Shown here: piece by piece, positions 7,301 through 38,608 of the stretch
How the letters are laid out: every line of letters begins with the position of its first letter
How positions within the stretch are numbered: the first letter of the stretch is position 1
Source of the DNA: Prevotella sp.
Lineage (GTDB): Bacteria > Bacteroidota > Bacteroidia > Bacteroidales > Bacteroidaceae
Length of the DNA stretch: 47,630 bases
Assembly: GCA_017556145.1 (NCBI GenBank)
Contig: JAFZCU010000011.1
Location: forward strand, 1-47,630
Direction of reading: 5' to 3'
Notes under the pieces: generated by a model
Told to the model about the DNA's origin: nothing
Database searches by the model: none
What the model saw: the letters and a program-made list of their open reading frames with translations, nothing else
Made by a program: the position numbers and the translations under genes

Positions 7301-8919
7301 ATCATTAGGTCCCAGTTGCCTTGTGAAGGATTATTCGACGTATTCTTCAGTGTCTTAACAAATAGGGCCTGGCCCGTCTGGGTGTTGTCGCTAGCAAACT
7401 CTCCCACTTGGTAAGTCTGTCCGCCTGCCGTAAACTCATAGGCCACAGCTAATACCTGATCGGTCTGCAGACTGGTTTTTAGTGAGATATAACCTAATGC
7501 TTTGTTCACGGTATATTCTGACGAGTTGAGAAGTTGTGCGCTTGCCAGTTTCTCATAATCTACACCGCCCTCGAAGTCTGGAATACCTGCCAATACGGTA
7601 CTTGCCTGATCGATATCGCGGGCATCGGCATATTGGCTCACCATCATCTGATATTCGGTATTGGCCTGATTGCAGGGCACCGTCTTACCTGTCAGTGTCC
7701 AATAAGGATTGCTCACCTTTGTGTTCTCACCCAAGTCTGTCAGGGCGATGATGTTTCGGGTATTCGAGGTTGTACCTGTTTTGTTAGTGATCCACACCTC
7801 CACGCGATTAATCTCAATACCTGTAGTCAGGTTGGGTAGTGTCGACATAGCTTGGTCGTAATGCTCGCGGAAAAATTGTGAGAGGAAAAAGTGACGATTC
7901 TCCTCATAGTCAGCTGCATTTAGCTCATAGGCCGTTGTCTGTGTCCCGCCTTTTGCAGAAACGCTCTTTGTGGAAGATTTCTTCTGCGAGACCACCGTCT
8001 GCAATTTCAGTTTGCCGAACTGCATATCGGTTCGGATACCGAACAGACTCGAGGCACCTTTCACCAGCGAGTTGTTCGAGGGGAAACTCACATTCCCACC
8101 TTCCACTAGTTTGATAATCTCGTCTTCCTTGCCATCATACTTCAGCTTTATATTCTGCGTGTCGAAATCGAAGGTGGCATCGGTGTTGTAGTTCAGGTTC
8201 ATGTTGACCTTGTCGCCCACCTTGCCGTTCACGTTCAGGTTGATCTTCTCGTCGAAGTCAAAGCTGGTGGTCTTGCGGTTACGGATGGGCAGCGAGGGAT
8301 TGTCGATATCTTTCATCGTGGTACCCAACTTCAATTCTGCCGTTCCCTGGGTTTTGATTCGCACACCACCTGGGCCGAAAATCTTCTCGGCAGGACCTAA
8401 GTCGAAATGCATGTCTGCAAACGAGAACTTATCCTTGCCCTCGGTGGTCACGTTCTGCACGTCTTTTTGGCGGAAGAAATCATAGAGGGCACGTTTCTCG
8501 CTCCATTTCTGGTATTCCTCTGGCGTCATCACGACTGGTGCGTTCAGATAGGTGTCGCCTATCTTTGAACCAATGTAGTAAAGGTTCAGCGAGTCATCGT
8601 ATTCTACCGTCTGGCGGATATTGTCGGGCATCTTCAGATCGAGAGCCGACGAGTCGAGATCCTCCACGAATACAGGAGCGGTCTTCTGGATTTTCCATCT
8701 GGGGTGGAGCAGTGAGTCGGGGATGTTTTCATCGTCTAAGGTCGATATTGGCTGTGCCTTGGGTCTGCTGACGGTGTCCGCAGGAAGAGAAGAGGTAAAA
8801 GTGAAGAGTGAGAAATCTGCTGCCGCCATGAGTAATGGTAGCATAAGTGGCATAGCAACAATCAGAACTACAACGATTTTGCGTATCCACCGAGCGGAAG
8901 CAAATTTATCACTTTTCAT
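1336..8919 (-). CDS. sprA: SprA/Sov, outer-membrane translocon of the type IX secretion system
   Basis: This 2,527-residue protein has the length and sequence character of SprA (Sov in Porphyromonas), the very large beta-barrel through which T9SS cargo crosses the outer membrane. It starts with a basic stretch and a hydrophobic segment (about residues 12-33). The family's N-terminal region follows (aspartate-rich, with a PEEYQKW segment), then long alternating beta-strand sequence to the end. Lysine/serine-rich low-complexity stretches occur near residues 1,920-1,960 and 2,410-2,430. The ATG at 8919 lies 14 bases after the ruvA stop, and a ruvA-sprA order is familiar in Bacteroidetes. The gap, start codon and codons 36-45 are made of 7-bp repeats that are complementary to each other, so the start could be hidden in a hairpin. 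No other T9SS core gene is in this window. Identity is firm. The start rests on the basic-plus-hydrophobic N-terminus. Confidence 0.93.
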   Translation of the reverse strand: MKSDKFASARWIRKIVVVLIVAMPLMLPLLMAAADFSLFTFTSSLPADTVSRPKAQPISTLDDENIPDSLLHPRWKIQKTAPVFVEDLDSSALDLKMPDNIRQTVEYDDSLNLYYIGSKIGDTYLNAPVVMTPEEYQKWSEKRALYDFFRQKDVQNVTTEGKDKFSFADMHFDLGPAEKIFGPGGVRIKTQGTAELKLGTTMKDIDNPSLPIRNRKTTSFDFDEKINLNVNGKVGDKVNMNLNYNTDATFDFDTQNIKLKYDGKEDEIIKLVEGGNVSFPSNNSLVKGASSLFGIRTDMQFGKLKLQTVVSQKKSSTKSVSAKGGTQTTAYELNAADYEENRHFFLSQFFREHYDQAMSTLPNLTTGIEINRVEVWITNKTGTTSNTRNIIALTDLGENTKVSNPYWTLTGKTVPCNQANTEYQMMVSQYADARDIDQASTVLAGIPDFEGGVDYEKLASAQLLNSSEYTVNKALGYISLKTSLQTDQVLAVAYEFTAGGQTYQVGEFASDNTQTGQALFVKTLKNTSNNPSQGNWDLMMKNVYYLASTVERTKFRLDIKYQSDTAGVYLTYIPDQRVKELTLLRILGCDRLDNNNKNHPNGYFDFVEGYTITNGRVFLPSAEPFGDYLRNQLISKGLSDADANRYVFSELYDSTKTVAKQIAEKNKFVMTGQYKGHNANVISLDAYNVPQGSVVVTAGGVTLQEGSDYSVDYSAGEVTILNQSIIDAGTNVNVSLESNTEYGMQRKTMLGLNWEYEFTKNFQIGGTLMHLSEQALISKVTMGEEPLRNTIWGLNVNWKQESQWLTSMLNKIPLLHVKEPSHITFTGEFAHLIAGSASGTQDNASYIDDFENTKNYIPVGEPKMWTISSVPTMFRESSDKTGVTSGYNRALLAWYYVDPIFTRHSSTLTPSHIKSDLEQLSNHYVREVYVKELYPNRQQSTYSGATSTLSVLNLAYYPEERGPYNLTLDLNSNGTLRQPETKWGGMMRKLETTDFEQANIEYIEFWMLDPYIYIREQGNASDYSGDLYFNLGEVSEDILRDGKKFYESGMPVDGTNSFTTTQWGRIPQQATQTYAFATTTGSRALQDVGLNGLNDEQEREFGAYKEWLDAIAAGGIVTNDSILQAWRNDPAGDDYHYYRGSDFDEEEKSILERYKRINNPQGNSPDTDDRTESYDTSYKTGPDVEDINQDFTLNEYERYYQYRVHISPDILDAYRNGNAVPGSFITDMRTSGVKLRNGDTTSVNWFQFRIPITEYERKEGSITDFSSIRFMRMFLTNFQNPIVLRFGSLDLVRGEWRIYKQNLSGSVETGTVKVSAVNIEENNDKQPVNYVLPPGISRVTDPSQPQLVENNEQALNIVVENLSPQESKAVYKNSNYDLRQYKRMQMFVHANHLVPDQSALKDNQLAVFIRLGSDYKSNYYEYEIPLKLTPDRNTYSRYSTTDRREVWPEDNMLDIDLSIFTSVKKERNIQKAQGVASYNQLFTAHDEKRPNNKVSIMGNPTLGEVKTMVIGVRNLSGEIKSGEVWVNELRLMETNNDGGWAASGNLQIQLSDFGSVNLTGHYIGEGFGGLEESVMQRNTDTQKQYSVTTSLELGKLFPEKAQVSAPLYYSVTKDEVRPRYNPLDSDMRLKDALDAADQHERDSIESLAVTKTTNTNFSLSNVRWGLKTKRHPMPYDPSNFSFSYSHAHHYTSGETTVYEKRDEWRGALNYNYSPVYKTWEPFGKLKGKSKWLNFPKAIGLNYLPQSISFNSTISREYYELQERDLEDLSGQKLPVIFDEQFLWNRDFSLRWDFTKNLRFNFQSATHAQIEEPYTPVNKDLYADSYYAWKDSVWQSIKNLGTPLDYQQQTTISYQLPLNKLPLFDWLNSDASYNANYSWTRGTELENGTSLGNIVNSRRNLNINATLNMETLYNHFPFLKKANERFKKAIPKKTPVKQSATSSKLKKPDKSENADKSDKATKTQSSSKNSYQREITLKPDTTITVAHNKKSKRLYVTAKTKDGKPYDLKYKIIDENKILIKSKDTINIKLSVMVKPSLENKWWYKPAQSAAHLLMMVRSINISYRNQYSMNLPGFMPNIGDAFGQRSSGGLSPGLDFAFGTISDSYLDKALANDWLMHNDSVANPATINSSSDLQLRATLEPIRDLKIDLNVSRTDTRAQRIQYMYEGKPTTHSGSFNMTTISLKGALEGMGDANNGYHSSTFDKFCSLLPEYTARVAGQYPEAGTVYANSTITGVNPYSADVMIPAFLSAYTSSGGSLDLFPALTHMLPNWTIRYNGLSKLTWFSNHFKSFNINHSYKSVFSIGSYASYSAWCEYMGDLGFITDQATGMLQPSSMYNISTVSINEAFSPLIGVDATLQNDLTAKLEYRTTRVLNLSMTSVQINEARSNDIVLGAGYKIRDFNLFGAGGNRKVKKAQSRSKSKNQQTDTQTSQNKGRSSSVNHDMNLRLDISFRQQAAITRDIASGTSSASNGNSAFKLSFMADYTLSRLLTLSAYYDQQTNTPLLSSSSYPTTTRDFGLSLKFSLTR
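8787..8814 (-). repeat. 7-bp repeat array inside the sprA signal region
   Basis: Four heptamers read on the plus strand as GAGAAGA, GGTAAAA, GTGAAGA and GTGAGAA. On the coding strand they are pyrimidine-rich and encode part of a FSLFTFTSSL stretch. The segment 8794-8814 matches the reverse complement of 8913-8933 at 18 of 21 positions. Confidence 0.7.
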
Positions 8920-8940
8920 TCTTCAGTTTTACCTTACTTA
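8906..8940 (-). repeat. 7-bp repeat array across the ruvA stop and sprA start
   Basis: Five degenerate heptamers can be laid end to end on the plus strand: TTATCAC, TTTTCAT, TCTTCAG, TTTTACC, TTACTTA. The array contains the ruvA stop (8934-8936), the whole intergenic gap and the sprA ATG (8917-8919). On the coding strand it is purine-rich and complementary to the array at 8787-8814. Confidence 0.6.
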
Positions 8941-9536
8941 ATCTGTTTCAGCGCCAACTTCACCACCTGTTCCACAGGCAGATCAGGCTGTTCCTGCAGA
9001 ATCTGCAGCACCACTTTCTGGGTGGGGGCAGGTGCGAAGCCCAGCATGGTCAGGGCTGATACGGCCTCATCCTTCACCTGATTGTTCACAGGGGCTATCA
9101 TCTGCCCGCCTGCGGGAATCTCATCGGCAATGCCAAGGGCCACAATCTTGTCCCTCAGGTCTACGATGATACGTTGGGCCGTCATCTTTCCGATACCTTT
9201 GATGCCTTGTATCAGTCGTGCGTTGCCAGTCGAGATGGCGTTGCACAACTCGCTTACGCTCATACCCGAGAGCATCATCCTCGCCGTATTGGCACCTACG
9301 CCGTTCACGGTAATGAGCAGTTCAAACATTTCGCGCTCTTTCTTGTTCACAAAGCCGAAAAGCACATGTGCATCCTCACGTATAGCCTCATGCACATAGA
9401 GCTTTACCTCCTTCTTGCCCTGTATAACACTGAAGGTGTTCAGCGAGATGTTCAGTCCGTAACCTACTCCAGCTGCCTCAACAGTTGCCAAAGCGGGGGT
9501 CAGTTCGGTCAACTCCCCCTTGATATATTCTATCAT
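8934..9536 (-). CDS. ruvA: Holliday junction branch migration protein RuvA
   Basis: This 200-residue protein has the usual RuvA length. RuvA tetramers bind the four-way DNA junction and load the RuvB motor during recombination and repair. The N-terminal OB-fold begins MIEYIKGEL and contains the VGYGLNI segment. Two helix-hairpin-helix motifs follow, including LITVNGVGANTARMML and LIQGIKGIGKMTAQRIIVDL. A C-terminal domain (VKDEAVSALTMLGF) contacts RuvB. I chose the ATG at 9536 rather than an in-frame one 17 codons upstream. The family starts at MIEYIKG, the sequence AAAAAAGGT sits just before it, and the upstream extension runs into a terminator hairpin. It is followed after 14 bases by sprA, so the two are probably co-transcribed. 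No ruvB or ruvC is present here. Confidence 0.96.
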   Translation of the reverse strand: MIEYIKGELTELTPALATVEAAGVGYGLNISLNTFSVIQGKKEVKLYVHEAIREDAHVLFGFVNKKEREMFELLITVNGVGANTARMMLSGMSVSELCNAISTGNARLIQGIKGIGKMTAQRIIVDLRDKIVALGIADEIPAGGQMIAPVNNQVKDEAVSALTMLGFAPAPTQKVVLQILQEQPDLPVEQVVKLALKQIK

Positions 9537-9570
9537 ACCTTTTTTAAATGTATATATACAACCATATAAA

Positions 9571-9613
9571 CGCAAACATCCCCGCATTTATTGTGTCTGC
9601 GGGGATGTTTGTG
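9571..9613 (-). terminator. Terminator of the esterase operon
   Basis: A 12-bp perfect stem (AAACATCCCCGC paired with GCGGGGATGTTT) with a 13-base loop can be extended outward by three more pairs including one G-U. It begins about 15 bases past the esterase stop and is followed on the minus strand by a T-rich but interrupted tail. It separates the carbohydrate operon from ruvA. Confidence 0.85.
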
Positions 9614-9628
9614 TTGCTTTCTGATGCT

Positions 9629-10903
9629 TTATTTCACGATTTTCCGACCGTTTTTGATGTAAATGCCTGGTGACAGGCTCCCCGTAGCCTTTCGGCCCTG
9701 CAGGTCATACACAGCATTTCGGCTGTCGTCGCTGTCTGTGGTGATGACGCTGATAGCCGAGGTACCTTTCGCCTGAAGGGTGATGACTATCTCGTGCTTC
9801 TCGCCTGTGAAATCAGTTATAGTAGTGGTCAACGTGCCAGAGGTGCCGGCATCGCCGAGCGTTACGATATTGCCGTTTCTGACTTCATAGTCTGTGCTGG
9901 TAAATACAGCATCCCTGATTTTCTCAGTATGCCCGTCGCTGTATGTGCAACTCAGGATGATTTGCTTGCTCTTGTTGGGATCGCCAACAATCGTCTGACC
10001 AACGCTCCTTAGTGTGAAGAATTTCTTCAGGCTAGCAGGCATGTCGTATTCAGGGTCCATCTGAGGTTCTTTGCCCATCACTTTAAGTGCCTCGAAAGCA
10101 TAGCGCTTGCCGAAGGTGCGATAGCCCGCAGCATTGAAATGCCAAGCGTCCTGACCGTTGCCAGGCACATCGATAGAACTGACGACATGGCCTGTGGGGA
10201 TGACATCAGGAATCTTTTTCACAACGTCATTGTGGGCATAGCAGCCGCCGCCCATATTCTGACGCAATGTCTCACCTGCGAAAATGGGCACATCTTCGGC
10301 CTTCAGATTCAGGTCGCTGAGGATGTTGTTATAGATTTTCTTCACATTATTGGGCCAGTTGGGGTCACCGTTATTCGAGCAGCCCTGATGTAATAGGATA
10401 CCCTTGATGACACCTACCTCCTGTGCCTTCTTGCCCATATCGACGAGTCGCTGGTAGGGATCGCTGCCATAGGCGCGGATACGTTCTGCCTGCCAACCAT
10501 CGGCCTTGGCCAGGATACCGGCAATCTTGTCGGGCATGAAGCCTTCGATGGCAATACCACCGATGGCCACGTCAACCACACCTACTCTGACTTCCTTGGG
10601 TAGGGCAGCCACCATCGTACGGCCGAAATAGTCGGCCATGCCCAGTCCACCCCAAGGGCTGACAATGGGCGGCGTTGCCTTATACCATTCGCCCAAATTA
10701 CGCTTTGGCGAGGAGAAATTACAGGTGGCAAGCATAAGAAAACGGTCATCCACATTCTGTTTGTCTACAGTTTCCGGTTGGGCATTACCCTCCATGTTCG
10801 ACTGTCCGAAACAGAGGTAGATGTAGAAGTTGGGATCCACCTCAGCGTGGGCTCCCAAAAGCCATCCGGCCAATAATACTGAACTCAAAATAAGTTTTTT
10901 CAT
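9629..10903 (-). CDS. Secreted CE6-type acetyl (xylan) esterase of the SGNH fold, with T9SS-like C-terminal tail
   Basis: A 424-residue protein with a signal peptide cleaved after AHA (residue 20). The catalytic domain has the SGNH/SASA signature FGQSNMEG with nucleophile Ser35, and the C-terminal pair Asp252 and His255 in DAWHF. This is typical of CE6 acetylxylan esterases and sialate O-acetylesterase-like enzymes, which remove acetyl groups from hemicellulose or other glycans. The block that usually reads QGE is HQGCSN here, with Cys175 in place of Glu, a departure worth noting. After the enzyme comes a beta-rich module (about 290-380), then a short tail VYDLQGRK...GIYIKNGRKIVK resembling type A T9SS sorting domains, consistent with sprA nearby. 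It is 26 bases downstream of the GH51 gene and last in its operon. The exact substrate is inferred from context. Confidence 0.83.
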   Translation of the reverse strand: MKKLILSSVLLAGWLLGAHAEVDPNFYIYLCFGQSNMEGNAQPETVDKQNVDDRFLMLATCNFSSPKRNLGEWYKATPPIVSPWGGLGMADYFGRTMVAALPKEVRVGVVDVAIGGIAIEGFMPDKIAGILAKADGWQAERIRAYGSDPYQRLVDMGKKAQEVGVIKGILLHQGCSNNGDPNWPNNVKKIYNNILSDLNLKAEDVPIFAGETLRQNMGGGCYAHNDVVKKIPDVIPTGHVVSSIDVPGNGQDAWHFNAAGYRTFGKRYAFEALKVMGKEPQMDPEYDMPASLKKFFTLRSVGQTIVGDPNKSKQIILSCTYSDGHTEKIRDAVFTSTDYEVRNGNIVTLGDAGTSGTLTTTITDFTGEKHEIVITLQAKGTSAISVITTDSDDSRNAVYDLQGRKATGSLSPGIYIKNGRKIVK

Positions 10904-10929
10904 GATGTAAATCTTTGATTATAGTAATT

Positions 10930-13113: not shown

Positions 13114-14315
13114 TCTCTATTCTTTTTGATGGTTGATTCTTCTATTCCTAAGCTATTCAGCAAGCCCTCTATCAGCGTCTGCTGGTGTCCGGGCATAATG
13201 ATATGATGGTTGCCAATGGGATTGGTCAGGAAATAGGATGTCTGACGCTTGTCAGCGAGCGCAATCACCTGCTGGGTCCGACATAGATCGGGCTTGGCCT
13301 GATTGCGCACCAGCGTTCCCTCTGTCACGAAATAGCGCGAAAGGTCACCAGCCAATTTGAAGATGGTGACCGGCCCCTCCTTCATATAGCCTCTGATGCC
13401 CACACCGATGCCCGACTCGAAATGCGTGTCGTATTCATAGCGCTCCACCATGTCGAAAGGGATGGTACAGTGGGCAAAGAGCATCTCGCCTGTCTCTGGA
13501 TTGATGGTCGAGGGATTGGCCTGAAAACCGGAGATGCCCAGCAGCGAGCGGACAATCATCATCGACAGCATCGCCGGCACATCGCCCTCACAACCAGCCA
13601 CATAACCTTCGGCATTAAGCTTCGCCAAAGCCAGGCATCCCGTGTTTCTGACTGCTGAGAGCAGATCGAAGCACCGCAGCGTAAAGCCCGAAAGGCGATA
13701 GGCATTGACCATCTCCTTCAGCGCCTCATAGATGCGCTGGGCGCCTGCCATTGCCTGCTGGATTGTCAGACAGTCCGACACTTTGTCAAGCAGCGCCTGC
13801 ATGGGAATGTCAACGAGCGTGATACCTAAGCGTTCCATCACGGTCTGTTTGTCAGCATGACTGGAGATGAGCCAGTCCGACGGCTCGCCGATAATGCCGA
13901 GCCGCGTGCCCCGAAGCCGACTGCAGGCTTTTTCAATGGCCTCCAGGTGTCTGATGCGCTGGGCGATATACGCCGTGCTGCCATGAATAATCTCGCCCCT
14001 GATATCGTGCTGACGCAGATAAGAGAGTATCTCCATCGATGCTGCCAACGAATTGCTCTTGCCTGATGTCAGCAGATAGAAAGGCTGGCTGCTCTTGGCC
14101 TGCAATCCTGGAAGCAGCTGTTTGAAGAGCCCCTCTGTACCGCCTGTCCTCACATAAATCAGACTGAGACTACTCGTTCCGTAGTCGCTATAGTCGTTGC
14201 CTTTCAGAACGTATTCTATGCCGATACTCCCCAGGAATTCCTGTGTCACGGCACTCACTGCTTTCTCATCGTGCAACGCCGATGTGAGCGTATATATGGC
14301 TGTTGTCTGTTTCAT
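13110..14315 (-). CDS. L-fucose/L-arabinose isomerase-family protein (COG2407-like)
   Basis: A 401-residue cytoplasmic protein without signal peptide. It resembles the fucose-isomerase-like family, which interconverts aldose and ketose sugars. The N-terminal half has alternating strands and helices (SLIYVRTGGTEGLF, PFYLLTSGKSNSLAASMEI, RLGIIGEPSDWL). The metal-site-like motif GCEGDVPAML follows, and near the C-terminus comes GNHHIIMPGH, a recognisable feature of FucI-type C-terminal domains. It is the first gene of the operon with the GH51 and CE6 enzymes. A role in metabolising the released pentose is therefore plausible, but the substrate cannot be read from sequence. The ATG at 14315 is only about eight bases from a good -7 element, so the transcript is predicted to be leaderless or nearly so. 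No other Met lies within the first 90 residues or so. Confidence 0.8.
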   Translation of the reverse strand: MKQTTAIYTLTSALHDEKAVSAVTQEFLGSIGIEYVLKGNDYSDYGTSSLSLIYVRTGGTEGLFKQLLPGLQAKSSQPFYLLTSGKSNSLAASMEILSYLRQHDIRGEIIHGSTAYIAQRIRHLEAIEKACSRLRGTRLGIIGEPSDWLISSHADKQTVMERLGITLVDIPMQALLDKVSDCLTIQQAMAGAQRIYEALKEMVNAYRLSGFTLRCFDLLSAVRNTGCLALAKLNAEGYVAGCEGDVPAMLSMMIVRSLLGISGFQANPSTINPETGEMLFAHCTIPFDMVERYEYDTHFESGIGVGIRGYMKEGPVTIFKLAGDLSRYFVTEGTLVRNQAKPDLCRTQQVIALADKRQTSYFLTNPIGNHHIIMPGHQQTLIEGLLNSLGIEESTIKKNRE

Positions 14316-14322
14316 TGCGTGG

Positions 14323-14353
14323 CAAAGGTAGGCAAAATCAGCGATAAGACAAA
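14323..14353 (-). promoter_or_regulatory. Promoter of the isomerase-GH51-esterase operon
   Basis: On the minus strand a TTTG -33 box (14353-14350) is separated by 19 bases from TACCTTTG (14330-14323), an excellent match to the Bacteroidetes consensus. Transcription would begin around 14316-14318, essentially at the start codon at 14315. Confidence 0.75.
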
Positions 14354-14490
14354 ATAAAAACCGATTTATTTTTTCTTTCGTTCAAAAACTTGTTCTCGTC
14401 CGTCAGTTGTTGTGGTACTCAAAATAATGCGGGCTCGTAGTCCGTAAGGAGCGAACTCGTAGTCCGACGGGACGGACTAAATTGTTCAAA

Positions 14491-14530
14491 CAAGGGGTCG
14501 GAGAATATGATTATTATCTCCGACCCCTTG
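14491..14530. repeat. 14-bp perfect hairpin in the non-coding island
   Basis: CAAGGGGTCGGAGA (14491-14504) pairs perfectly with TCTCCGACCCCTTG (14517-14530) around a 12-base AT-rich loop. It looks like a terminator stem, but neither strand has a good T-run after it and no gene ends next to it. Confidence 0.7.
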
Positions 14531-14754
14531 AATCCTGGTGTTGCGTATGGCTTCTTACTTCTGCAGCATCTTCTTGCATAGTAAGCTTTTCGGGGGACAG
14601 TTAGAAAGTCCTCAGTCCTCATCCATCTTTCCTTCGGACTTGCATTGTACCAAGCTCGCCCAAAACGGGTTTTGAATGTACCAAGAGCGAATGAACAGTG
14701 ATAGAACAGCGAAATAAGTGGCTTTTCACTGTCCTGGAGTGCGTTTCATTTTGT

Positions 14755-14820
14755 GTCTAGGCGCACAGTTGTTTGCGTATAGGCGAACAATCGTTTGGGT
14801 ATAGCCGAACTATAGAGAGA
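14755..14820. repeat. Three degenerate 22-bp tandem repeats
   Basis: Units at 14755-14776, 14777-14798 and 14799-14820 share the pattern GTATAGGCGAACA followed by a TCGTTTGG-like end. Units 1 and 2 are closest and unit 3 has diverged. There are no spacers of constant length and no cas genes, so this is not CRISPR. Confidence 0.6.
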
Positions 14821-14986
14821 TATGCATTCTTCCCCTTTTCTTCCTAGTCCTTTCCCCTGCGAGCCTTAATCCTTGTACCCTAAAAGGCATTTAACCTATG
14901 GCAGGGTTAAGGCAAAAACCATTCAACTTTTTCTAGGGAAGTACAACTTGTTCCTTTTTGCCTCCGAATGTCTAGTCTGAATCGGT

Positions 14987-15008
14987 TATGGTTACAGCTG
15001 TAACCATA
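14987..15008. repeat. Perfect palindrome, copy 1
   Basis: The core GGTTACAGCTGTAACC (14990-15005) is a perfect 16-bp palindrome, and three more pairs extend it to 22 bp here. A partial half-site GGTTA precedes it at 14984. It could be an operator or a cruciform/RNA hairpin. The same core occurs again at 15112-15127. Confidence 0.75.
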
Positions 15009-15111
15009 TCTCCGCAGAGATGAAAAATGATAATCGATATGATTATAGAGTGTTGATTATCAATTACTTGTAAGTATTTTTAAGACGCAATCAAACTGGA
15101 AAAGGTTACAT

Positions 15112-15127
15112 GGTTACAGCTGTAACC
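15112..15127. repeat. Perfect palindrome, copy 2
   Basis: This is an identical copy of GGTTACAGCTGTAACC, with a half-site GGTTACA at 15104-15110 just before it, mirroring the arrangement at copy 1. It lies 122 bp from copy 1 and about 20 bases from the terminator of the LruC-type gene. Confidence 0.75.
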
Positions 15128-15145
15128 GAGACCATTTTCAAGGGT

Positions 15146-15180
15146 ATAAAAAAGGAGCGACTGCTCACGCAGGCGCTCCC
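15146..15180 (-). terminator. Rho-independent terminator of the LruC-type gene
   Basis: On the minus strand GGAGCG pairs with CGCTCC, enclosing an inner four-pair stem (CTGC/GCAG) with one mismatch between them and a four-base loop. A TTTTTT run follows directly. It begins about 40 bases past the stop at 15219. Confidence 0.92.
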
Positions 15181-15218
15181 TTCCCTTTTAGTTTTATTAA
15201 AAGTATTTGATGTATTTA

Positions 15219-17249
15219 TTAGTACCACCTAATCAGAGGATTAGAAATCCAATCCTTGAAGCGTTGATAGTTCTCATTGATGTTCTGCTGTTCTACACAA
15301 ATACGGAAGCCTTTCTTTACTGCCAGTTTCGCAGCAGGATCACCCTTTTCAGCTTTCAACTCAATCCAGTTTGGCTCGGCAACAGTACCCTTATTAACAT
15401 AAATCAAGATATCCTTACCATTTTCGCTCTTTACGAGGTCTGTAACTGTGAACTCAGGCTTTAAATCAATTGTTGTAGAAATACCACCTGTGTTAACCAT
15501 TGTGGTTGTTGGCACATGATAAAGTTCATGTACTTCAACCCAGTCATTCTCATCGAGGAGATTCGGATTACCATTCAAACCTTTCTTACCTATGCGGAGC
15601 GGCAGGGTTCCACCAGCAGCGAGAAGCGTACATTTTGCACTTGTGCCGGCAGGATCATACTTAACACCAAATACAACATCATTGAAATCCCAGTCGGTAT
15701 CGCCAGGTGTCAAGTCCTCACCAATAATACGGACATCAAATTCATCATCATCATCACCATTAAAGCCTGGGCAGCATGTTGTCTCCTGGATGGTGATACC
15801 AGGTTTACCTGGTCTGAAGCCTTGTGCATAAATATTCAGAGCTACTTTGAAACCATTCTCACCTTCATCTTCATAAATAAACGTGTCGCTTTCACTGCCT
15901 TTTGGAAAATGTGTCTCTGCACAAACGTACAAGTTTCCGCTATAGGTAACAGCACCTTGAGTGTTCTTAAGGTCTTCGTTTCTGACAACATTCTTAGCCT
16001 GGAATACAGCATAGTCACCACTTTCAGGACCAAAGAATCCCCATCCAGGGTTACCACCCTCAAGTGTAGCAGTTTCAGTAACCTTAAAGACTGCTGAATG
16101 ACCCATCACGATTTTATAGGGACCTGATTTAGAATTTGAATCACCATATTTCTTACCGCCATAAAAATTCCTTGTCAACACACCACCGCCTGTATCAATC
16201 TTAAATGAAGCTTCAGTATTCGATGATGATATGTTCATATCAAAATCATCTGTTACCTCAAGGAAACAATTGTTGATGACATTCTCGCTGCCAGCCGTAT
16301 AACCGTAATTCTTAGTCTGCCAGTAGCCATTGTTGACCCATCCGCCGTTTGTACAATTGACGATCGTGTATCCTGTTACGGTCCACTCTGCATTGTTTTG
16401 CAAAGCTCCGCTACCTTCCACATGAACAGATACAGATTCAATTTCACCATCATTGACGATTCTGCTCGTGCTGTTTGCAATATATACATCGCCTGTCGAT
16501 TTCAACTTACCTACATTATAAAGGAAGGCAGTATTGTTAACTTCAAATCTAGAGCATTCAATGGTTCCATGGTTATATACTTTTCCAGTATTATCCATCT
16601 TAAGCCCATTAGCACCATTTGCAATCAATGTTGATGTGCTTGCTATATATAAGGTGAATTTTGCTTCAGATGCTGCAGTGTTATTAAGGGTTAGAGTTAC
16701 TCCTGGAAGTAGGTATACTTCTGTTCCTTCAGCCAGATTAAATTCTGTATCTGAGAAATCATATGTACCAGCTTTTATGTAAAGCTTAGAACCTGAATTA
16801 GCACTTGTGATTTTAACTTTTTGAACACTGTCTATATATGCTACACCACTAGGAAATTCATCAGGTGTCCACCATTCTGAAGCATTAGGTGCATTTCTGC
16901 AACATTCGTCATAAGAAGGAATATTCTTGATATCAGGATCGAAATTGCTGGCAGCGCAATCCTCTGGGAAAGTAATGCCAGTAGGTGTCAAGTTGCCTTT
17001 CGAAGCATACTTCCCCTCAGCACGGGTAAAGGCACGCGCCGAAGCATTGACATTATCGAAGCCCCAATCCTGGTTGGATGCAGGTTGTCCGAACTTTGAA
17101 ATAAATGCCTTGTTGTAATTGTCAACAATTTGTTTAGCCTTTGCAGCATTTATCTCCTCCTGACTCGTTGGTTCAATTTCATGCGAACAGCTTGTGAATC
17201 CAATGCACAATGCCAGTGCAGCGATTCCAGTCATCAAATAATATTTCAT
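15219..17249 (-). CDS. LruC-type lipoprotein: beta-helix-like domain plus DUF4842
   Basis: A 676-residue protein. I start it at ATG 17249 because this gives a clean lipoprotein signal MKYYLMTGIAALALCIGFTSC (lipobox Cys21). The longer frame upstream adds 33 residues and reaches into the promoter. After the signal comes a segment often seen in this family (IVDNYNKAFISKFGQP..NQDWGF). Residues of about 130-380 carry repeated short beta motifs (TLYIASTSTL, GKVYNHGTIEC, RIVNDGEIES, GGWVNNGYWQ) suggesting a right-handed beta-helix. The last 180 residues match LruC-domain/DUF4842 proteins, with the acidic motif TDWDFNDVVFG near residue 515, probably a calcium site. Known family members are surface lipoproteins of unclear function. 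It is a single-gene unit with its own promoter and terminator. A surface adhesin or binding role is inference. Confidence 0.85.
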   Translation of the reverse strand: MKYYLMTGIAALALCIGFTSCSHEIEPTSQEEINAAKAKQIVDNYNKAFISKFGQPASNQDWGFDNVNASARAFTRAEGKYASKGNLTPTGITFPEDCAASNFDPDIKNIPSYDECCRNAPNASEWWTPDEFPSGVAYIDSVQKVKITSANSGSKLYIKAGTYDFSDTEFNLAEGTEVYLLPGVTLTLNNTAASEAKFTLYIASTSTLIANGANGLKMDNTGKVYNHGTIECSRFEVNNTAFLYNVGKLKSTGDVYIANSTSRIVNDGEIESVSVHVEGSGALQNNAEWTVTGYTIVNCTNGGWVNNGYWQTKNYGYTAGSENVINNCFLEVTDDFDMNISSSNTEASFKIDTGGGVLTRNFYGGKKYGDSNSKSGPYKIVMGHSAVFKVTETATLEGGNPGWGFFGPESGDYAVFQAKNVVRNEDLKNTQGAVTYSGNLYVCAETHFPKGSESDTFIYEDEGENGFKVALNIYAQGFRPGKPGITIQETTCCPGFNGDDDDEFDVRIIGEDLTPGDTDWDFNDVVFGVKYDPAGTSAKCTLLAAGGTLPLRIGKKGLNGNPNLLDENDWVEVHELYHVPTTTMVNTGGISTTIDLKPEFTVTDLVKSENGKDILIYVNKGTVAEPNWIELKAEKGDPAAKLAVKKGFRICVEQQNINENYQRFKDWISNPLIRWY

Positions 17250-27706: not shown

Positions 27707-27736
27707 GATTCACTATTCACTTAACTATTCACTCAC
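27707..27736 (-). repeat. 7-bp repeat array in the hpt-adk gap
   Basis: Coding-strand units GTGA, GTGAATA, GTTAA, GTGAATA, GTGAATC run from the end of hpt to just before the adk ATG. The hpt stop codon lies inside the array. Same family as the arrays near sprA, fba, the DUF4831 gene and tolC. Confidence 0.7.
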
Positions 27737-29874: not shown

Positions 29875-29895
29875 AAAAAAGAAAAAAGAAAAAAT
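29875..29895 (+). repeat. A-rich 7-bp repeats before the DUF4831 start
   Basis: AAAAAAG, AAAAAAG, AAAAAAT run up to the ATG at 29896, preceded by AAAGGTA. The 11 bases 29869-29879 are exactly complementary to 29971-29981 inside the gene. Confidence 0.6.
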
Positions 29896-30996
29896 ATGAG
29901 AAAGAGATTATTGAGCAATTGGGCAAAAAGAGTAACGGTGGCGGGTGTTTTACCCTTTTACCTTTTTACCTTTTTACCTTTGCATGCGCAAACCAGCACA
30001 AGTTCCTATCAGCCAGGTGTCACTCCCGAAGGTATGGTCTATTTCCTGCCAAAGACCGCCGTTCGCATTGTCGTACAAGTAGAGAAGACCACCTACACCC
30101 CAGGAGAGTTCTGCAAATACGCCGACCGTTATCTGCGTCTGAAAGACGTCGCTTCTGAGTTGTCTGTCAACTATCGCATCATCAACCTTCGAGTCGAGCC
30201 TGTGGCGATGGCTGATACCACCAAAGGCTTCGCAGTGAAATTCGACCCCAAGAGTGTTGCTTCCAACATCGCCCTTTCCGATGACGGTATCCTGCTGGCC
30301 ATCAATGCCACACCCAAATCTGCTGAGCCGGCACCCGCTTTCAAAGCTGCCCCCAAGCCAACGATAATGAATCCCCGCCAATTGATGAGTGAGGAGATTC
30401 TTGCAGCAGGTAGTACAGCGAAAATGGCAGAATTGACGGCTCAGGATATCTATGAAATCCGTGAGAGCCGCAATCTACTCATCCGAGGCCAGGCAGACAA
30501 TATGCCTAAGGATGGCGAGCAACTGAAACTGATGCTCAATCAACTGGAGATGCAGGATCGCGTCCTGAGCAGCCTTTTTTCTGGACAGACCGTCAAGGAT
30601 ACGACCGAACAGGTGATGACCATCATGCCTGACAAGGAAATAGAGCGCGAACTGCTGTTCCGTTTCTCAAAGAAATTGGGGCTTGTTGACAAAGATGACC
30701 TCGCAGGCGAACCTTATTATATTAGGGTGGCCAATCTGCATACCGTACCGATGCCAGAGGCTAATGAGAAGAAGAAAAAACAAGAGCCTGGCCTCTATAT
30801 TAATGTGCCAGGCAAAATGAAAGTCACAATCTACGATGCCATTGAGCCTGTGAACGTCGTGGAGCTTCCTGCAGGACAGTTTGGTAATGTTGAATTGCTG
30901 AGTGGCGCACTGTTCAACAAACGCTATGCCACCCATATTTGGATGAATCCTATTTCCGGAGCTGTCGACAGGCTGGAGGCCGAACAACCGAAATAG
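29896..30996 (+). CDS. DUF4831 family secreted/periplasmic protein
   Basis: A 366-residue protein matching what I know of DUF4831 proteins of Bacteroidetes, whose function is unknown. The signal peptide (MRKRLLSNWAKRVTVAGVL.., cleavage near LHAQ) is partly encoded by a TTTTTACC repeat. After it come GMVYFLPKTAVRIVVQVEKTTYTPGEFCKYADRYL (a conserved opening), a YRIINLRVEPVAMADTTKGFAVKF segment, a central helical part (LTAQDIYEIRESRNLLIRGQADNMP) and a C-terminal beta-rich half (PYYIRVANLH, GLYINVPGKMKVTIYD, GALFNKRYATHIWMNPISGAV). It sits 29 bases after nnr and ends three bases from the end of the convergent coiled-coil gene. Export is supported by the signal, with no functional prediction. Confidence 0.85.
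   Translation: MRKRLLSNWAKRVTVAGVLPFYLFTFLPLHAQTSTSSYQPGVTPEGMVYFLPKTAVRIVVQVEKTTYTPGEFCKYADRYLRLKDVASELSVNYRIINLRVEPVAMADTTKGFAVKFDPKSVASNIALSDDGILLAINATPKSAEPAPAFKAAPKPTIMNPRQLMSEEILAAGSTAKMAELTAQDIYEIRESRNLLIRGQADNMPKDGEQLKLMLNQLEMQDRVLSSLFSGQTVKDTTEQVMTIMPDKEIERELLFRFSKKLGLVDKDDLAGEPYYIRVANLHTVPMPEANEKKKKQEPGLYINVPGKMKVTIYDAIEPVNVVELPAGQFGNVELLSGALFNKRYATHIWMNPISGAVDRLEAEQPK
29948..29981 (+). repeat. 7/8-bp repeat array within the DUF4831 signal peptide
   Basis: Units TTTTACCC, TTTTACC, TTTTTACC, TTTTTACC and a partial TTT encode the hydrophobic core LPFYLFTFLPL. Unit length is not a multiple of three, so gain or loss of one unit would shift the frame. Confidence 0.7.
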
Positions 30997-32267: not shown

Positions 32268-32291
32268 CATAAGTATGGTTGTTCAAAATAA

Positions 32292-33354: not shown

Positions 33355-33364
33355 CGAATTAAAA

Positions 33365-33391
33365 GTGAATCGTGAATCGTGAATCGTGAAT
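33365..33391 (-). repeat. 7-bp repeat array upstream of fba
   Basis: Four perfect or near-perfect units GTGAATC on the plus strand, immediately upstream of the fba -7 element. Its left end AAAAGTGAAT (33361-33370) is exactly complementary to ATTCACTTTT at 33463-33472. Confidence 0.85.
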
Positions 33392-33462
33392 AATTTGCTA
33401 CCGACAAAGGAAATTTCATATTTATTTGCAATGACGATAGATAGAAAGACTGATTTTGCCAA

Positions 33463-33504
33463 ATTCACTTTTCACTTTTCACCATTCACTAATAACTATT
33501 CACT
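33463..33504 (-). repeat. 7-bp repeat array just after the response regulator
   Basis: Six units on the plus strand: ATTCACT, TTTCACT, TTTCACC, ATTCACT, AATAACT, ATTCACT. It begins four bases past the response regulator stop and faces the fba-side array in inverted orientation, so the RNA could fold into a hairpin that may help end the operon. Confidence 0.8.
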
Positions 33505-33508
33505 TCCG

Positions 33509-34219
33509 TCAAGACAGCGTGTGCGTATCGAGATACTGCTGCACCTCCTCTTTATAGTTATCGGAGATAGGGATAAACACATCACCAAATACGATACGGA
33601 AACGGTCAATAGAGCGCACCTCAGGCATGTGGACGATATAAGAGCGGTGAGTACGCAGGAACTCTGGGTGAGGCAGATAATCCTCCAGTTTCTTCATACT
33701 CATCAGCGACATGATCTTCTCGCCGTTTTTCAGACAGATACGCACATAATCTTTTAGACCTTCCACGTATAGGATATCGTCAAGGCAGACACGTAACAGT
33801 TTGTATTCGCTCTTGATGAACATGATACGATCATCGTTATAAGCCTCACGTTTCTGAAGGATATTATACCAATCCTGCGCTTTTTCCGTGGCACGAAGGA
33901 AATCCTCATAACTAATGGGTTTTAAAAGATAATCGAGGGCGTTCACCTTATAGCCTTCGAGGGCATATTGAGGGAAGGCTGTCGTAAAAATGATCTTGGT
34001 GTCTTTGGGTAAGATCTTTGCAAACTCCACACCACTAAGCTCTGGCATTTGAATGTCAAGAAACAATAGGGGCACCGGGTTGTCACGCAAATCACGCATG
34101 GCGGTAATCGCACTATTATAGGTACCCGTCAGATTCAGATAGGGCGTTTTTGCTACATAACTTTCCAGAAGACCTGCAGCCAATGGCTCGTCATCAATGA
34201 TGGCACAATTAATTGTCAT
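33509..34219 (-). CDS. LytTR-family response regulator
   Basis: A 236-residue transcription regulator. The receiver domain (1-120) has the acidic pair DDEP (9-12), phospho-acceptor Asp55 in LLFLDIQMP, Thr79/Thr80 in IIFTTAF and Lys100 in LLKP. A LytTR DNA-binding domain follows (about 130-233; FIKSEYKLLRVCLDDILYVEGLKDYVRI and FLRTHRSYIVHM). These proteins bind direct repeats upstream of targets. Its partner kinase gene starts upstream and the two are 23 bases apart. It is the last gene of the efflux operon and probably regulates the pump or a stress response. The signal is unknown. Confidence 0.95.
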   Translation of the reverse strand: MTINCAIIDDEPLAAGLLESYVAKTPYLNLTGTYNSAITAMRDLRDNPVPLLFLDIQMPELSGVEFAKILPKDTKIIFTTAFPQYALEGYKVNALDYLLKPISYEDFLRATEKAQDWYNILQKREAYNDDRIMFIKSEYKLLRVCLDDILYVEGLKDYVRICLKNGEKIMSLMSMKKLEDYLPHPEFLRTHRSYIVHMPEVRSIDRFRIVFGDVFIPISDNYKEEVQQYLDTHTLS

Positions 34220-34242
34220 AGTTCCAGTTCTTTTTAAAATGT

Positions 34243-35346: not shown

Positions 35347-36553
35347 GACGAATCGCTTCTATAGGATCCATATTTGCTGCCTTCTGTGCTGGGATATATC
35401 CGAAGAGCACACCGATAAACACACAGACAAGGAAAGATACGTAGATACTCCATGCTGGTACGCTGCTGGGCATACCGAAGGACGAGACGAATGTACTCGC
35501 CCCAACCCCGACAAGGACACCTATCAGTCCTCCCGTCACTGATATCAATACTGATTCGATAAGAAATTGCAAAGATATGACAGGCCCCGTGGCTCCCACA
35601 GCCATACGGAGTCCTATCTCTTTAGTACGCTCGGTCACAGAGACAAGCATGATATTCATGATACCGATACCCGCTACAAGTAGAGAGAAGGCTGCGGCTA
35701 CGACAAGGATGATGGTTACCGTATCCATCGTCGATGACATCGTCTCCATCATCTCGGCCTGAGAACGGATGGTGAAATCGTCAGCAGCCTCATCCTTCAG
35801 TTTATGATTGTCGCGCAGCATCTGTGTCAGTTCCTCTATGGCGGCATCAGACAATTCTTCCGTAATGGCGGAACAAACAATGCTGGAGAAATAGGTCTGG
35901 GCAGCAATACGCTTCATAACAGTTGTATAGGGAGCGATGATCACATTGTCCTGGTCCATACCCCATGAGTTGTAACCCTTGGACTTCAGCACACCAACGA
36001 TACGCATGGGGATCGACTTGAAGCGGATGGTCTTGCCGATGGGGTCGTGACCGTCGAAGAGTTCCTTGACGATGGTGGCTCCCACGAGACACACCTTCGC
36101 CGCCTTCTTGATATCCTCCTCGGTGAAGCAATCGCCTTCCTCAATCACCCACTGGCGGATGTCGAGATAGTCGGCCGACTCACCGTACATCGAGGCATTG
36201 GTATTGTTGTTACCATAGATGGCCTGTCCGCTGGCCGTCACCTCGGGCGACACCTTTGTCACGAACTTCTTCTCACGGACGATACGTTCGTAGTCGGCCA
36301 TCTTCAAGGTCTGCATGGCAGAGGGATCCTGACGCACACCGCCTCGCATGTCGGCACCCGGACGGATAGTCAGCAGGTTGGTACCCATTGTGGAGAGCTC
36401 CGCGCGGATACTCTCCTTCGAGCCCTGTCCGATACTCATCATAATGATGACGGCTGCCACACCGATGATGATACCCAGCATCGAGAGGAAGGAGCGCATC
36501 TTGTTATTGGCCACCGCCTTCAGACTTACTTTTATGAGATTCAGTATATTCAT
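35339..36553 (-). CDS. MacB-like ABC transporter permease
   Basis: A 404-residue permease with the MacB/FtsX layout: one transmembrane helix near the N-terminus (SFLSMLGIIIGVAAVIIMMS), a periplasmic MacB_PCD domain of about 220 residues, then three more helices (TVTIILVVAAAFSLLVAGIG, FLIESVLISVTGGLIGVLVG, YVSFLVCVFIGVLFGYIPAQ) and the family ending NMDPIEAIRHE. The conserved EIGLRMAVGA coupling segment is present. I start at ATG 36553 because the upstream in-frame TTG would overlap the ATPase gene. It works with the ATPase at 36556-37314 in a separate-subunit form rather than the fused MacB of E. coli. It is mechanotransmission-type and exports substrates from the periplasm through the TolC-like channel. 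Confidence 0.94.
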   Translation of the reverse strand: MNILNLIKVSLKAVANNKMRSFLSMLGIIIGVAAVIIMMSIGQGSKESIRAELSTMGTNLLTIRPGADMRGGVRQDPSAMQTLKMADYERIVREKKFVTKVSPEVTASGQAIYGNNNTNASMYGESADYLDIRQWVIEEGDCFTEEDIKKAAKVCLVGATIVKELFDGHDPIGKTIRFKSIPMRIVGVLKSKGYNSWGMDQDNVIIAPYTTVMKRIAAQTYFSSIVCSAITEELSDAAIEELTQMLRDNHKLKDEAADDFTIRSQAEMMETMSSTMDTVTIILVVAAAFSLLVAGIGIMNIMLVSVTERTKEIGLRMAVGATGPVISLQFLIESVLISVTGGLIGVLVGVGASTFVSSFGMPSSVPAWSIYVSFLVCVFIGVLFGYIPAQKAANMDPIEAIRHE

Positions 36554-36555
36554 AA

Positions 36556-37314
36556 TCAATCATCATTCTGTGTCGGCAGCTTGGCAAGGGCTTCGGCTGC
36601 AGATTTGATATTCGTATTAATGGTATCTTCGCGGATCTTACCATCTCGCAGGTTGATATTACGGCTGGCATATTCGGCAATCTCAGGGTTGTGAGTCACG
36701 AAGATGATCGTGTTACCCTGCTTGTAGAGTTCCTGGAAGAGCACGAGCATCTCAAACGAGGTGCGGGTGTCGAGGTTACCTGTTGCCTCATCAGCAAGAA
36801 GCACGGCGGGGTCGTTAACCAAGGCGCGGGCGATGGCAACGCGCTGCATCTGGCCACCCGACATCTGGTTCGACTTATGGTACATACGGTCTCCCAGTCC
36901 CACGGCCTGCAGGGCCTTGATAGCCTTCTCACGACGCTCTGAGGCAGAGATCTCGGAGTTGTACATTAGCGGCAGCTCCACATTTTCCAAAGCGGTGGTC
37001 TTCGGCAACAGATTATAACTCTGGAACACGAAGCCGATCTTACGGTTACGCAGACGGGCACGCTTGGTCTTCGACATCGTCCGTACGCTGATGCCATCGA
37101 GGAAGTACTCACCGCTGGTGGGCGTGTCAAGACAGCCCAACTGGTTGAGCAGCGTCGACTTGCCGGAGCCGGAAGTACCCTGAATGGTGACGAACTCGCC
37201 CTCGTAGATCTTGAACGAGACCCCACGCAGCGCCTTCACCGTCTCCTCTCCCACCTGGAAGTAGCGCTTCACATTCTGCAGCTCAATGACGACTTTTCTA
37301 TTATCTTCAGCCAT
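36556..37314 (-). CDS. ABC transporter ATPase (MacB/LolD type)
   Basis: A 252-residue ATPase powering the permease encoded two bases downstream. Walker A is GTSGSGKST (46-54), the Q-loop is VFQSYNLLP, the signature [15 protein letters not shown] begins at 151, Walker B is VLLADEAT (171-178) with Glu176, and the H-loop is VTHN with His208. The sequence around [26 protein letters not shown] is the MacB/LolD type. It starts three bases after the adaptor gene. A C-terminal extension ([17 protein letters not shown]) is short and unremarkable. Confidence 0.96.
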
Positions 37315-37317
37315 AGC

Positions 37318-38556
37318 TTATTGTCTTCTTGGTGCCTGTCCACCGGCGTTACCACTCTGTCCGCCCTGGGCACCGCCTCTGTTGTTGTTTCTGTTACCAC
37401 CCGGACGCGGCATGAACGGGTTCTGAGTCTGTCCGCCCTGCGGCATGGTCATTTCGCCACCCGTGATATTGAAATCGGTGAGTACCTCTGTACCCTCAGC
37501 GATGCCACCAGTGATTTCAGTCAGCACACCGTTGGTGGTTCCTGTCTCTACCTTATGGGCCTTGAACACGTTACCCTCCTTTGTCCACAGCTTGAACATG
37601 CCTTCGCAGTCCTCCACCTTCTCGTCTTTCTGCAACAGGGCTTCATTAGGAATGAAGCGCAGGGCCTTGGAGGGAACCACAAGCACGTTGTTCTTCTCTA
37701 GGGTGAAGATCGTCACATTCGCCGTCAGACCGGGTTTCAGCTTCAGGTCGTTGTTGGGCGCAGAGATCACCACCTCGTAAGTCACGACGTTACTCTCGGT
37801 CGTGGCCTGCTGGCGCACTTGTGTCACAGCACCCTCAAACTTGTCGTCGGGGAAAGCATCAACGGTGAAGCTCACGCGCTGACCCTCCTTCACGCCACCG
37901 ATGTCGGCCTCGTCAATATCGGCAATCACACGCATGTTCGTCAAGTCCTGGGCGATGGTGAACAGCTCAGGGGTATTGAACGAGGCTGCCACCGTCTGAC
38001 CTTCTTCCACTGCCTTCGACAACACAACACCATCGATGGGTGAAGTGATGGTAGCATAGCCAAGGTTCGTCTGGGCACGCTGCACACTCTCTCGTGACTG
38101 TGCCACCTGCTGCTTCGACTGCTCGTATTGCAGACGGGCACTCTCAAACTCGTCGGCACTCACCAGTCCCTTCTCATAGAGGGTCTTGTAACGCTCAAAG
38201 TTACTCTGCTGATAGTTCAGTGAACTCTGTGCAGAAGCAAGACTGGCCTTCTGGGCATTCAGCTCACTGATCAGGTTAGTACGGTCGAGTTCAGCTATCA
38301 CCTGACCCTTCCTGACCACACTGTTATAGTCAACATAGAGTTTGGATACAATACCTGACACCTGTGTACCTACTGTCACACTCGTTACAGGCTCGATAGT
38401 ACCCGTAGCAGTGATGGAGGTCTGGATATTCCCCATTTCTACCTTTGCCGTATCAAACGACACCTTTTCTTCTTTCTTTCCACCTGAGAGCAGGAAATAC
38501 AAAATTGCAATCACGGCAATCACACCGATGGCAATCCAAAGTTTCTTATTCTTCAT
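37318..38556 (-). CDS. MacA-like periplasmic adaptor (HlyD/RND membrane fusion family)
   Basis: A 412-residue membrane fusion protein bridging the inner-membrane ABC pump and the outer-membrane channel. It has an N-terminal membrane anchor (7-24), the lipoyl half-motif TGTIEPVTSVTVGTQVSGIV, a long helical hairpin (about 90-170, LNAQKASLASAQSSLNYQQS.. and QSRESVQRAQTNL) and the second lipoyl half ATITSPIDGVVL. Beta-barrel and membrane-proximal domains complete the order (VRVIADIDEADIGGVKEGQRVSF, LKPGLTANVTIF). The C-terminus is a glycine/asparagine/glutamine-rich tail (PRPGGNRNNNRGGAQGGQ) that looks disordered. It follows the TolC-like gene after 46 bases of 7-bp repeats. Confidence 0.95.
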   Translation of the reverse strand: MKNKKLWIAIGVIAVIAILYFLLSGGKKEEKVSFDTAKVEMGNIQTSITATGTIEPVTSVTVGTQVSGIVSKLYVDYNSVVRKGQVIAELDRTNLISELNAQKASLASAQSSLNYQQSNFERYKTLYEKGLVSADEFESARLQYEQSKQQVAQSRESVQRAQTNLGYATITSPIDGVVLSKAVEEGQTVAASFNTPELFTIAQDLTNMRVIADIDEADIGGVKEGQRVSFTVDAFPDDKFEGAVTQVRQQATTESNVVTYEVVISAPNNDLKLKPGLTANVTIFTLEKNNVLVVPSKALRFIPNEALLQKDEKVEDCEGMFKLWTKEGNVFKAHKVETGTTNGVLTEITGGIAEGTEVLTDFNITGGEMTMPQGGQTQNPFMPRPGGNRNNNRGGAQGGQSGNAGGQAPRRQ

Positions 38557-38573
38557 ATCTTTCGTTTTTATTT

Positions 38574-38608
38574 TCTTACCTCTTACTTCTTACCTCTTAC
38601 CTCTATTT
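38574..38608 (-). repeat. 7-bp repeat array between tolC-like and adaptor genes
   Basis: Plus-strand units TCTTACC, TCTTACT, TCTTACC, TCTTACC, TCTATTT. On the coding strand this reads as purine-rich GGTAAGA repeats directly after the TolC-like stop codon, which lies in the last unit. Confidence 0.8.

Follow-up and report, generated by a model that had tools for sequence, protein, structure and literature searches.

Heptameric tandem repeats occur at five gene junctions in a 47,630-nt stretch of Prevotella sp. DNA (contig JAFZCU010000011.1; the window denotes this whole stretch): ruvA/sprA, hpt/adk, nnr/DUF4831, response regulator/fba and tolC/hlyD. With a probability of about 0.6, many such arrays are dispersed Prevotella elements of typically four units plus a tail (~38-42 bases), polar in build and present either singly or as tail-inward pairs. 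The gene names assigned to the junctions agree with Pfam for sprA, ruvA, adk, nnr, DUF4831, class-II fba, hpt (phosphoribosyltransferase), the LytTR response regulator, hlyD and tolC (OEP); the regulator lies 5' of fba, and tolC lies 5' of hlyD. The closest named relatives of this Prevotella are rumen metagenome-assembled genomes. A search of the window against Rfam gave 0 matches.

Tandem Repeats Finder was run on the window, and degenerate arrays were read by eye from the letters. The program reports period 7 at 27708-27733, 29875-29894, 33365-33391, 33463-33504 and 38574-38604, assigns period 8 to 29948-29981, and gives no row at 8787-8814 or 8906-8940. The last two are too degenerate for it and yet readable: 8794-8814 reads GGTAAAA GTGAAGA GTGAGAA, and the minus strand from 8933 to 8906 reads GGTAAAA CTGAAGA ATGAAAA GTGATAA. 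The heptamer periodicity claimed by the initial annotation is thus present in the letters, with the exception of 29948-29981, where the period is 8. A period-7 self-match scan detects four segments in the window, compared with 0.0 in Markov simulations.

The arrays had been described as units only, which is incomplete: the two families studied usually consist of four units followed by a unique tail, and some arrays are inverted partners. Family 1 is a polar element of usually four heptamers (GTGAANA) and a 12-base tail, ATTTGCTNCCGC; family 2 is (GTTTANA)x4 followed by GATGATTACY. At ruvA/sprA, a family-1 element at 8787-8826 (G strand plus) lies antisense within the sprA start and comprises a degenerate unit, GGTAAAA, GTGAAGA, GTGAGAA and the tail ATCTGCTGCCGC, with a tail-pattern match at 8808-8826 (2 mismatches). 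Its tail-inward partner at 8894-8933 (minus strand), which overlies the sprA start, has four units and the tail ATTTGCTTCCGC (tail-pattern match 8894-8912, 1 mismatch). At regulator/fba, the family-1 element at 33365-33404 (plus strand) is located 5' of the fba promoter region and antisense to fba, with exactly four units and the tail ATTTGCTACCGA (tail-pattern match 33386-33404, 1 mismatch). It faces an inverted partner at 33463-33504 (minus strand), a six-unit GTGAANA array 3' of the regulator stop codon, in sense orientation and without the canonical tail. Four-unit family-1 copies in the window are therefore those at 8894-8933 and 33365-33404.

The nnr/DUF4831 gap holds a GAAAAAA array at 29875-29895 (plus strand), sense, without a tail and immediately 5' of the ATG; a period-8 TTTTACCT array at 29948-29981 (G strand minus) lies within the DUF4831 coding start. 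The arrays are mutually inverted at this junction, as they are at ruvA/sprA and regulator/fba. The two remaining junctions each carry a single sense array on the minus strand, without a tail and unstructured: an interrupted GTGAATA array at 27707-27736 in the hpt/adk gap (minimum free energy -0.5 kcal/mol) and a GGTAAGA array of ~4.4 units at 38574-38604 in the tolC/hlyD gap (0.0 kcal/mol). Most arrays occupy gaps, as had been proposed, but 8787-8814 falls within the coding start of sprA and 29948-29981 within that of DUF4831. The coding starts of these two genes overlapped by arrays are hydrophobic and signal-peptide-like.

Genome-wide excess and anatomy of the element

The heptamer family spans the source genome. 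In a sample of 1,005,104 bp, many stretches of which were taken from contigs with already known matches, 96 period-7 arrays are found, compared with 1 in one order-2 Markov simulation. The expected preference for gaps is strong, with 63/96 arrays intergenic though 14% of the DNA is non-coding (binomial p 7e-31; the 86%/14% coding/non-coding split comes from a home-made gene caller with approximate gene starts). Among 21 stretches picked without regard to matches (240,597 bp, the window included), 17 of 19 arrays are intergenic. In orthologous Prevotella loci (1.457 Mb; 80 loci retrieved using the nnr of the window), 118 period-7 segments compare with 1.0 expected, and the next periods are 14 (85 segments, a multiple of 7) and 9 (68). 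Other periods are also seen in the 1.0 Mb of the source genome: 26 intergenic and 28 coding arrays have period 9, an excess over the 0 of the simulation, and 20 arrays have period 8.

After alignment of 182 arrays by expectation-maximisation for a common register, the G strand displays a loosely shared consensus in which one position is free, A-R-T-K-D-A-N. The idea that the units are variants of one pattern holds to that extent, while several families can be told apart, among them GTGAANA, GTTTANA, AATTGAN, GTTGAGA, GGTAANA and AGGAGAC. Most G-strand units contain a stop codon; AGGAGAC and GTTTACG do not, and a three-frame stop cassette was dropped as a general role on this ground. A 180-bp AGGAGAC run at one locus (L126, 17743-17922), in frame as RRQETGD repeats, far exceeds the usual four units.

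Array content changes between close relatives. At nnr/DUF4831 the family depends on the species, with GTGAGAA in L032, GTGAATA in L034, GTTTAAA in L047, a GTTTATA/GTTTACA mix in L050, and no array in L031 or L035. At hpt/adk, array size varies among relatives at 95-97% Nnr identity, as predicted between strains: L034 has ~2 units, L033 ~4 and L032 ~7, while L031 and L035 lack the array and have an unrelated spacer.

The tail is tied to the arrays. In 2.1 Mb, AAT[TC]TGCTNCCG lies directly 3' of an array at 9/10 places. When as many as 3 mismatches are allowed, the pattern GTGAANAATTTGCTNCCGC has 47 matches in the source genome, compared with 4 for the reversed pattern; with at most 1 mismatch it occurs in 71/150 genomes of the genus (the source genome included), and the reversed control has 0 matches in all 150. 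In an order-level sample, the tail pattern is present in 8/198 genomes, again including the source genome, against 3 control matches; the seven others have one match each, six of them with a mismatch, and may be chance. Arrays as such (AGTGAAN repeated) occur in 30/198 genomes of the order; for a similar pattern the reversed control is not clean, as it also matches AGTGAAA arrays. The family-1 tail pattern is further present, in exact form, in 79 IMG/VR contig stretches (L403-L481), whose DNA may be viral or from a bacterial host.

Exactly four units precede the family-1 tail in 24/34 copies of the source genome and in 30/45 copies of relatives; with shuffled upstream sequence as the control, 69/79 copies show one unit. 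Across 75 distinct copies, the three units that the search leaves free carry a mean of 0.94-1.35 bits, the next seven bases upstream of the four units 0.47 and those beyond ~0.07, and information 3' of the tail drops from 0.21 to 0.05. Family 2 has 24 matches in the source genome and is positive in 25/150 genomes, only 6 of them with three or more matches; its reversed control has 6 matches in the 150 genomes, and the weaker positives may be chance. Exactly four units are present in 24/44 family-2 copies, from four genomes that were match-rich or the source genome itself.

Copies also lie in frame within genes. The CobT protein of the source genome carries LSEKGKVNSEKFATATLP in place of the five residues present there in 15/15 relatives, which adds 13 residues net (39 bp). 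GH3 and CobQ carry peptides near-identical to the CobT copy; a clean in-frame insertion in these two proteins is not upheld, as their loops vary in length. Further families are found in frame as NSQLSTLNSQL and similar peptides.

Strand, facing pairs and operon hairpins

The placement of unpaired arrays follows a strand rule in short gaps. In same-strand gaps of up to 90 bases, the G strand is sense in 46 arrays and antisense in 3 (p 7e-11), while longer gaps and gene interiors exhibit no strand bias; these counts take arrays with an orientation margin of at least 3 and exclude those with a lower margin, those more than 150 bases from a gene and those at locus ends. In the first 150 bases of genes, unpaired arrays are antisense in 16/21 cases (p 0.027), and the C strand of such gene-start arrays can encode hydrophobic stretches, for example in sprA and DUF4831. 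Among the 30 family-1 loci of the source genome, the 7 located in short gaps between same-strand genes are all sense, whereas the 6 in longer gaps of this kind divide into 2 sense and 4 antisense. Another 4 fall within genes (3 sense, 1 antisense), 10 between divergent genes and 1 between convergent ones, with 2 undetermined.

An inverted partner lies within 260 bp of 56/182 arrays, compared with 8/182 when the flanks are reversed. At a score of at least 18, a partner is found for 18% of arrays, and for 2.6% when arrays are compared with the flanks of other arrays, which indicates that partners share their unit type. The G arm comes first and the C arm second in 29/30 distinct pairs (32/33 rows, with three double entries), the sole exception being a Segatella copri pair (L097). 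Tails point inward in 14/14 family-1 pairs within 200 bp among the matches listed by the 150-genome tail search, and in 4/4 family-2 pairs. The full form, seen in pieces from relatives, reads heptamers-tail-loop-tail-heptamers. A homologous loop recurs, in both orientations, at three sites of a single contig that lie within 9 kb (L281-L283), and a common loop joins family-2 pairs of the source genome (L366, L374, L376) with one of G118 (L398). Taken with L050, L054 and L058, the family-2 pairs of L366, L374 and L376 form inverted-repeat elements of ~100 bp whose loop is conserved in part, similar to miniature inverted-repeat transposable elements (MITEs).

The polarity belongs to the heptamer pairs. 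A set of 49 strong intergenic inverted repeats comprises 12 whose arms have period 7 (including two orthologous ones), 24 that are non-periodic and 13 with a period of 8, 9 or 10 in the arms. In each of the 12, the left arm has more G than C, whereas the non-periodic group divides 11:10:3. The even split of the non-periodic hairpins rules out a general hairpin polarity. An independent strand rule as the cause is likewise ruled out, since unpaired long-gap arrays are unbiased (3:3, 9:6, divergent 5:9).

Two of the pieces from relatives, L286 and L291, come from different species and are both located between acpP and fabF. Spacers of this junction were read in the best 30 fabF loci of a 60-genome search, which was positive in 56 genomes and returned no fabF match in the source genome. 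In 25/30 loci the spacer is at least 64 bases long with a stem of at least 14 pairs, and 24/25 of these stems have z <= -3 (range -2.8 to -12.6); the other 5/30 spacers measure 18-20 bases and have no stem. At other junctions across relatives, z <= -3 is reached in 2/54 spacers at hpt/adk, 3/55 at nnr/DUF4831, 1/9 at tolC/hlyD and 6/16 at regulator/fba; these controls are shorter than the acpP/fabF spacers and not length-matched. Stem sequences differ widely by species, with some related species sharing one. Their arms are composed of GTGAAGA with or without the tail, ATTGATA, GGATTAGTGATTA, GGAATTA or GTTATAA; others have a period-8 GGATTGAA arm or are ordinary stems, and the scan flags period 7 in 9/25. 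In the window, the sprA pair folds with z -3.9 and the regulator/fba core with z -4.2.

Because the acpP/fabF hairpins recur with widely different sequences, selection would act on the hairpin itself. We read this junction, from its sequences, as probably under selection for an intercistronic hairpin, for which heptamer pairs would be one exchangeable source. From general physiology, such a hairpin may let the cell make more acyl carrier protein than FabF.

Origin and role of the elements

The proposed course of events has copies spreading through a copying process, after which the number of units would drift by slippage of 7 bases. A single copy could be tolerated, or even useful, between operon genes when the strand present in the mRNA is C-poor, A-rich and unstructured, and such a strand would suit initiation without Shine-Dalgarno pairing. 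Bacteroidetes lack Shine-Dalgarno sequences, and in Flavobacterium adenines and low structure 5' of the start favour initiation, according to the available part of PMC6847099. Compatibility of single sense arrays with translation initiation is the favoured reading of their placement and predicted folding. A facing pair would instead give a long RNA hairpin 3' of a stop codon, which may hinder or terminate transcription, or else shield the mRNA upstream of it. Any function most likely lies in the area of coupling, RNA decay or termination.

Within the source genome, duplication of whole copies has modest support. A number of observations weigh against the account as a whole. The recognised tail is absent from many arrays, including 5/8 in the window, and heptamers shuffled among copies give as many near-identical copies in 40/1000 trials. 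In GH3 and CobQ the copies occupy loops whose length varies, and they resemble a replacement more than a clean insertion. No target-site duplication was found, and no close empty site was resolved at base level, the CobT neighbours being too diverged; no mobilising enzyme was found for the elements. A family-1 partner is present at only 2/30 family-1 loci of the source genome, and therefore a hairpin role cannot explain most of its copies. The controls for acpP/fabF folding lack length matching, and across relatives regulator/fba reaches z <= -3 in only 6/16. In the window, the whole regulator/fba spacer folds weakly (z -2.0), and the inverted pair at nnr/DUF4831 exhibits no significant folding (z -0.5).

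The best-surviving alternative, though an unlikely one, is plain slippage, in which 7-base duplications survive in gaps without a role and inverted copies arise by template switching on hairpins. The differences in unit number between close relatives agree with it, as do the many families that share little except their period, the arrays that far exceed four units (L126) and the lack of strand bias among single arrays that lie in long gaps or inside genes. It does not account for a unique conserved tail in 71/150 genomes, for the mode at four units, for the recurrent hairpin at acpP/fabF or for the tail-inward polarity of pairs, which strand-blind template switching does not predict. Slippage likely changes the number of units afterwards, without explaining tail, four-unit mode and polarity. 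Distinctly improbable is a set of binding sites at which a protein would recognise 7-base units of RNA or DNA, the role suggested for the TAACTGA repeats in front of start codons; strand-specific placement before start codons and the fixed four units would suit such a protein, but families with freely differing units occupy one and the same orthologous junction, and the members of a pair resemble each other more closely than a common site.

Mobilisation of elements of the repetitive extragenic palindromic (REP) type by a Y1 transposase of the same genomes, akin to REP-associated tyrosine transposases (RAYTs), is the least probable: the tail is present in 21/27 genomes with a Y1 class of ~250-310 aa, sorted by hand from a Y1_Tnp survey, and in 50/123 without it (Fisher p 5.5e-4, uncorrected for relatedness), but no tail element lies within 350 bases of the gene at any of 20 Y1 loci (some flanks end at contig ends), several of these loci carry a different repeat with CCTGTCCCC, and one 97% complete genome (G032) has 14 tail matches and no Y1 match. 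RAYT mobilisation, suggested by the correlation of presence, is not supported by the flanks of the 20 Y1 genes.

The Y1 loci have features of their own. The CCTGTCCCC repeat flanks several members of the Y1 class (G000:C81:4618-4977, which is L328, and L329-L346) and is perhaps their own REP-type target. Two of the 20 loci, L339 and L343, have period-7 arrays without the tail near the gene. At L339, heptamer runs of TGATCCC, TGATCCA and TGATCCT adjoin the transposase's own repeat just 3' of the Y1 gene, and a GTGAAAA-type array lies upstream of it.

Relation to known repeats

Dispersed elements with four units and a tail, the reading preferred here, have counterparts in several known systems. 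The cyanobacterial heptamer repeats named by the initial annotation are a fair comparison. The closest precedent, as far as the available text extends, is the GGGNATC / GGGGAYT heptamers of Xanthomonas and Nostoc, with their intergenic over-representation and preference for four units (Rehm et al. 2015, PMC4692102). Both properties are shared by the Prevotella arrays of period 7. Convergent close pairs are also common to Prevotella and to the Xanthomonas repeats (GGGAATC), for which the same source, in its available part, gives 70 and 75 pairs in two genomes, with few in Nostoc. The Xanthomonas and Nostoc repeats are reported there to lie mostly on the coding strand near stops and on the non-coding strand upstream of genes, an arrangement like that of the paired Prevotella arrays and unlike that of the single ones, which in short gaps are sense rather than antisense before start codons. 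A fixed unique tail is a property of the Prevotella elements that the accessible text does not describe for those repeats.

Their authors tie the four units to G-quadruplexes (PMC4692102, available text). In contrast to the GGG of the Xanthomonas and Nostoc units, GTGAANA and GTTTANA contain no GG, which rules out a G-quadruplex reading for both tail families; GG does occur in first units of the GGTAANA type and in minor families, AGGAGAC among them, and GGG in a few copies. Since Prevotella displays four units and facing pairs without any G run, G-quadruplexes cannot be the general reason for four.

The TAACTGA direct repeats of marine Beggiatoaceae, Cyanobacteria and five Bacteroidetes including Paludibacter (MacGregor 2015, PMC4679880) resemble the Prevotella arrays in placing heptamers directly 5' of start codons in a strand-specific manner. 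According to the available text, they differ in having one exact unit, with related units rare and one indirect repeat in the main genome; tail and hairpin pairs, present in Prevotella, are not described there for them. A literature search, with subscription papers and preprints outside its coverage, found no report of these units in Prevotella. Relative to the heptamer repeats as described in the accessible parts of these sources, the tail, the polarity relative to the tail, the exchangeable families and the recurrent hairpins appear to be new.

Repeats of the REP type, bacterial interspersed mosaic elements (BIMEs) and MITE-type repeats are dispersed and intergenic, and they often form inverted pairs able to fold in mRNA. 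Unlike REPs with a RAYT, a single Prevotella copy consists of direct heptamers and a tail with no palindrome of 20-40 bases, and only pairs are inverted; unlike REP/BIME, its unit is periodic at 7 and no transposase is linked to it. The homologous loops at L281-L283 and in family 2 might correspond to the shared interior that terminal inverted repeats enclose in MITEs, whereas 28/30 family-1 loci of the source genome have no family-1 partner. The in-frame copy within a conserved gene, CobT, is like the Rickettsia palindromic elements, which are longer palindromes, unlike the polar Prevotella element of ~40 bases.

To our knowledge, the preference of bacteria for 7-base tandem repeats, and for fours of them, has no settled answer, the printed reason being G-quadruplexes. 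A tentative and rather doubtful generalisation would make four heptamers plus a tail an architecture common to unrelated phyla (Prevotella, with the published four-unit preference of Xanthomonas and Nostoc), written by a polar copying process that often writes back a tail-inward copy. If so, the four-unit preference would derive from the writing machinery rather than from G-quadruplexes, and cells would recruit pairs as exchangeable operon hairpins. Copies, empty sites and a possible enzyme can be sought through the conserved tail. The acpP/fabF junction, at which hairpins of changing sequence recur, is a natural test series for the selection of operon hairpins as structures.

Apart from the heptamers, the window contains a long non-coding stretch at 14310-15220, in which the palindrome GGTTACAGCTGTAACC occurs twice and a 22-bp tandem repeat lies at 14750-14810.

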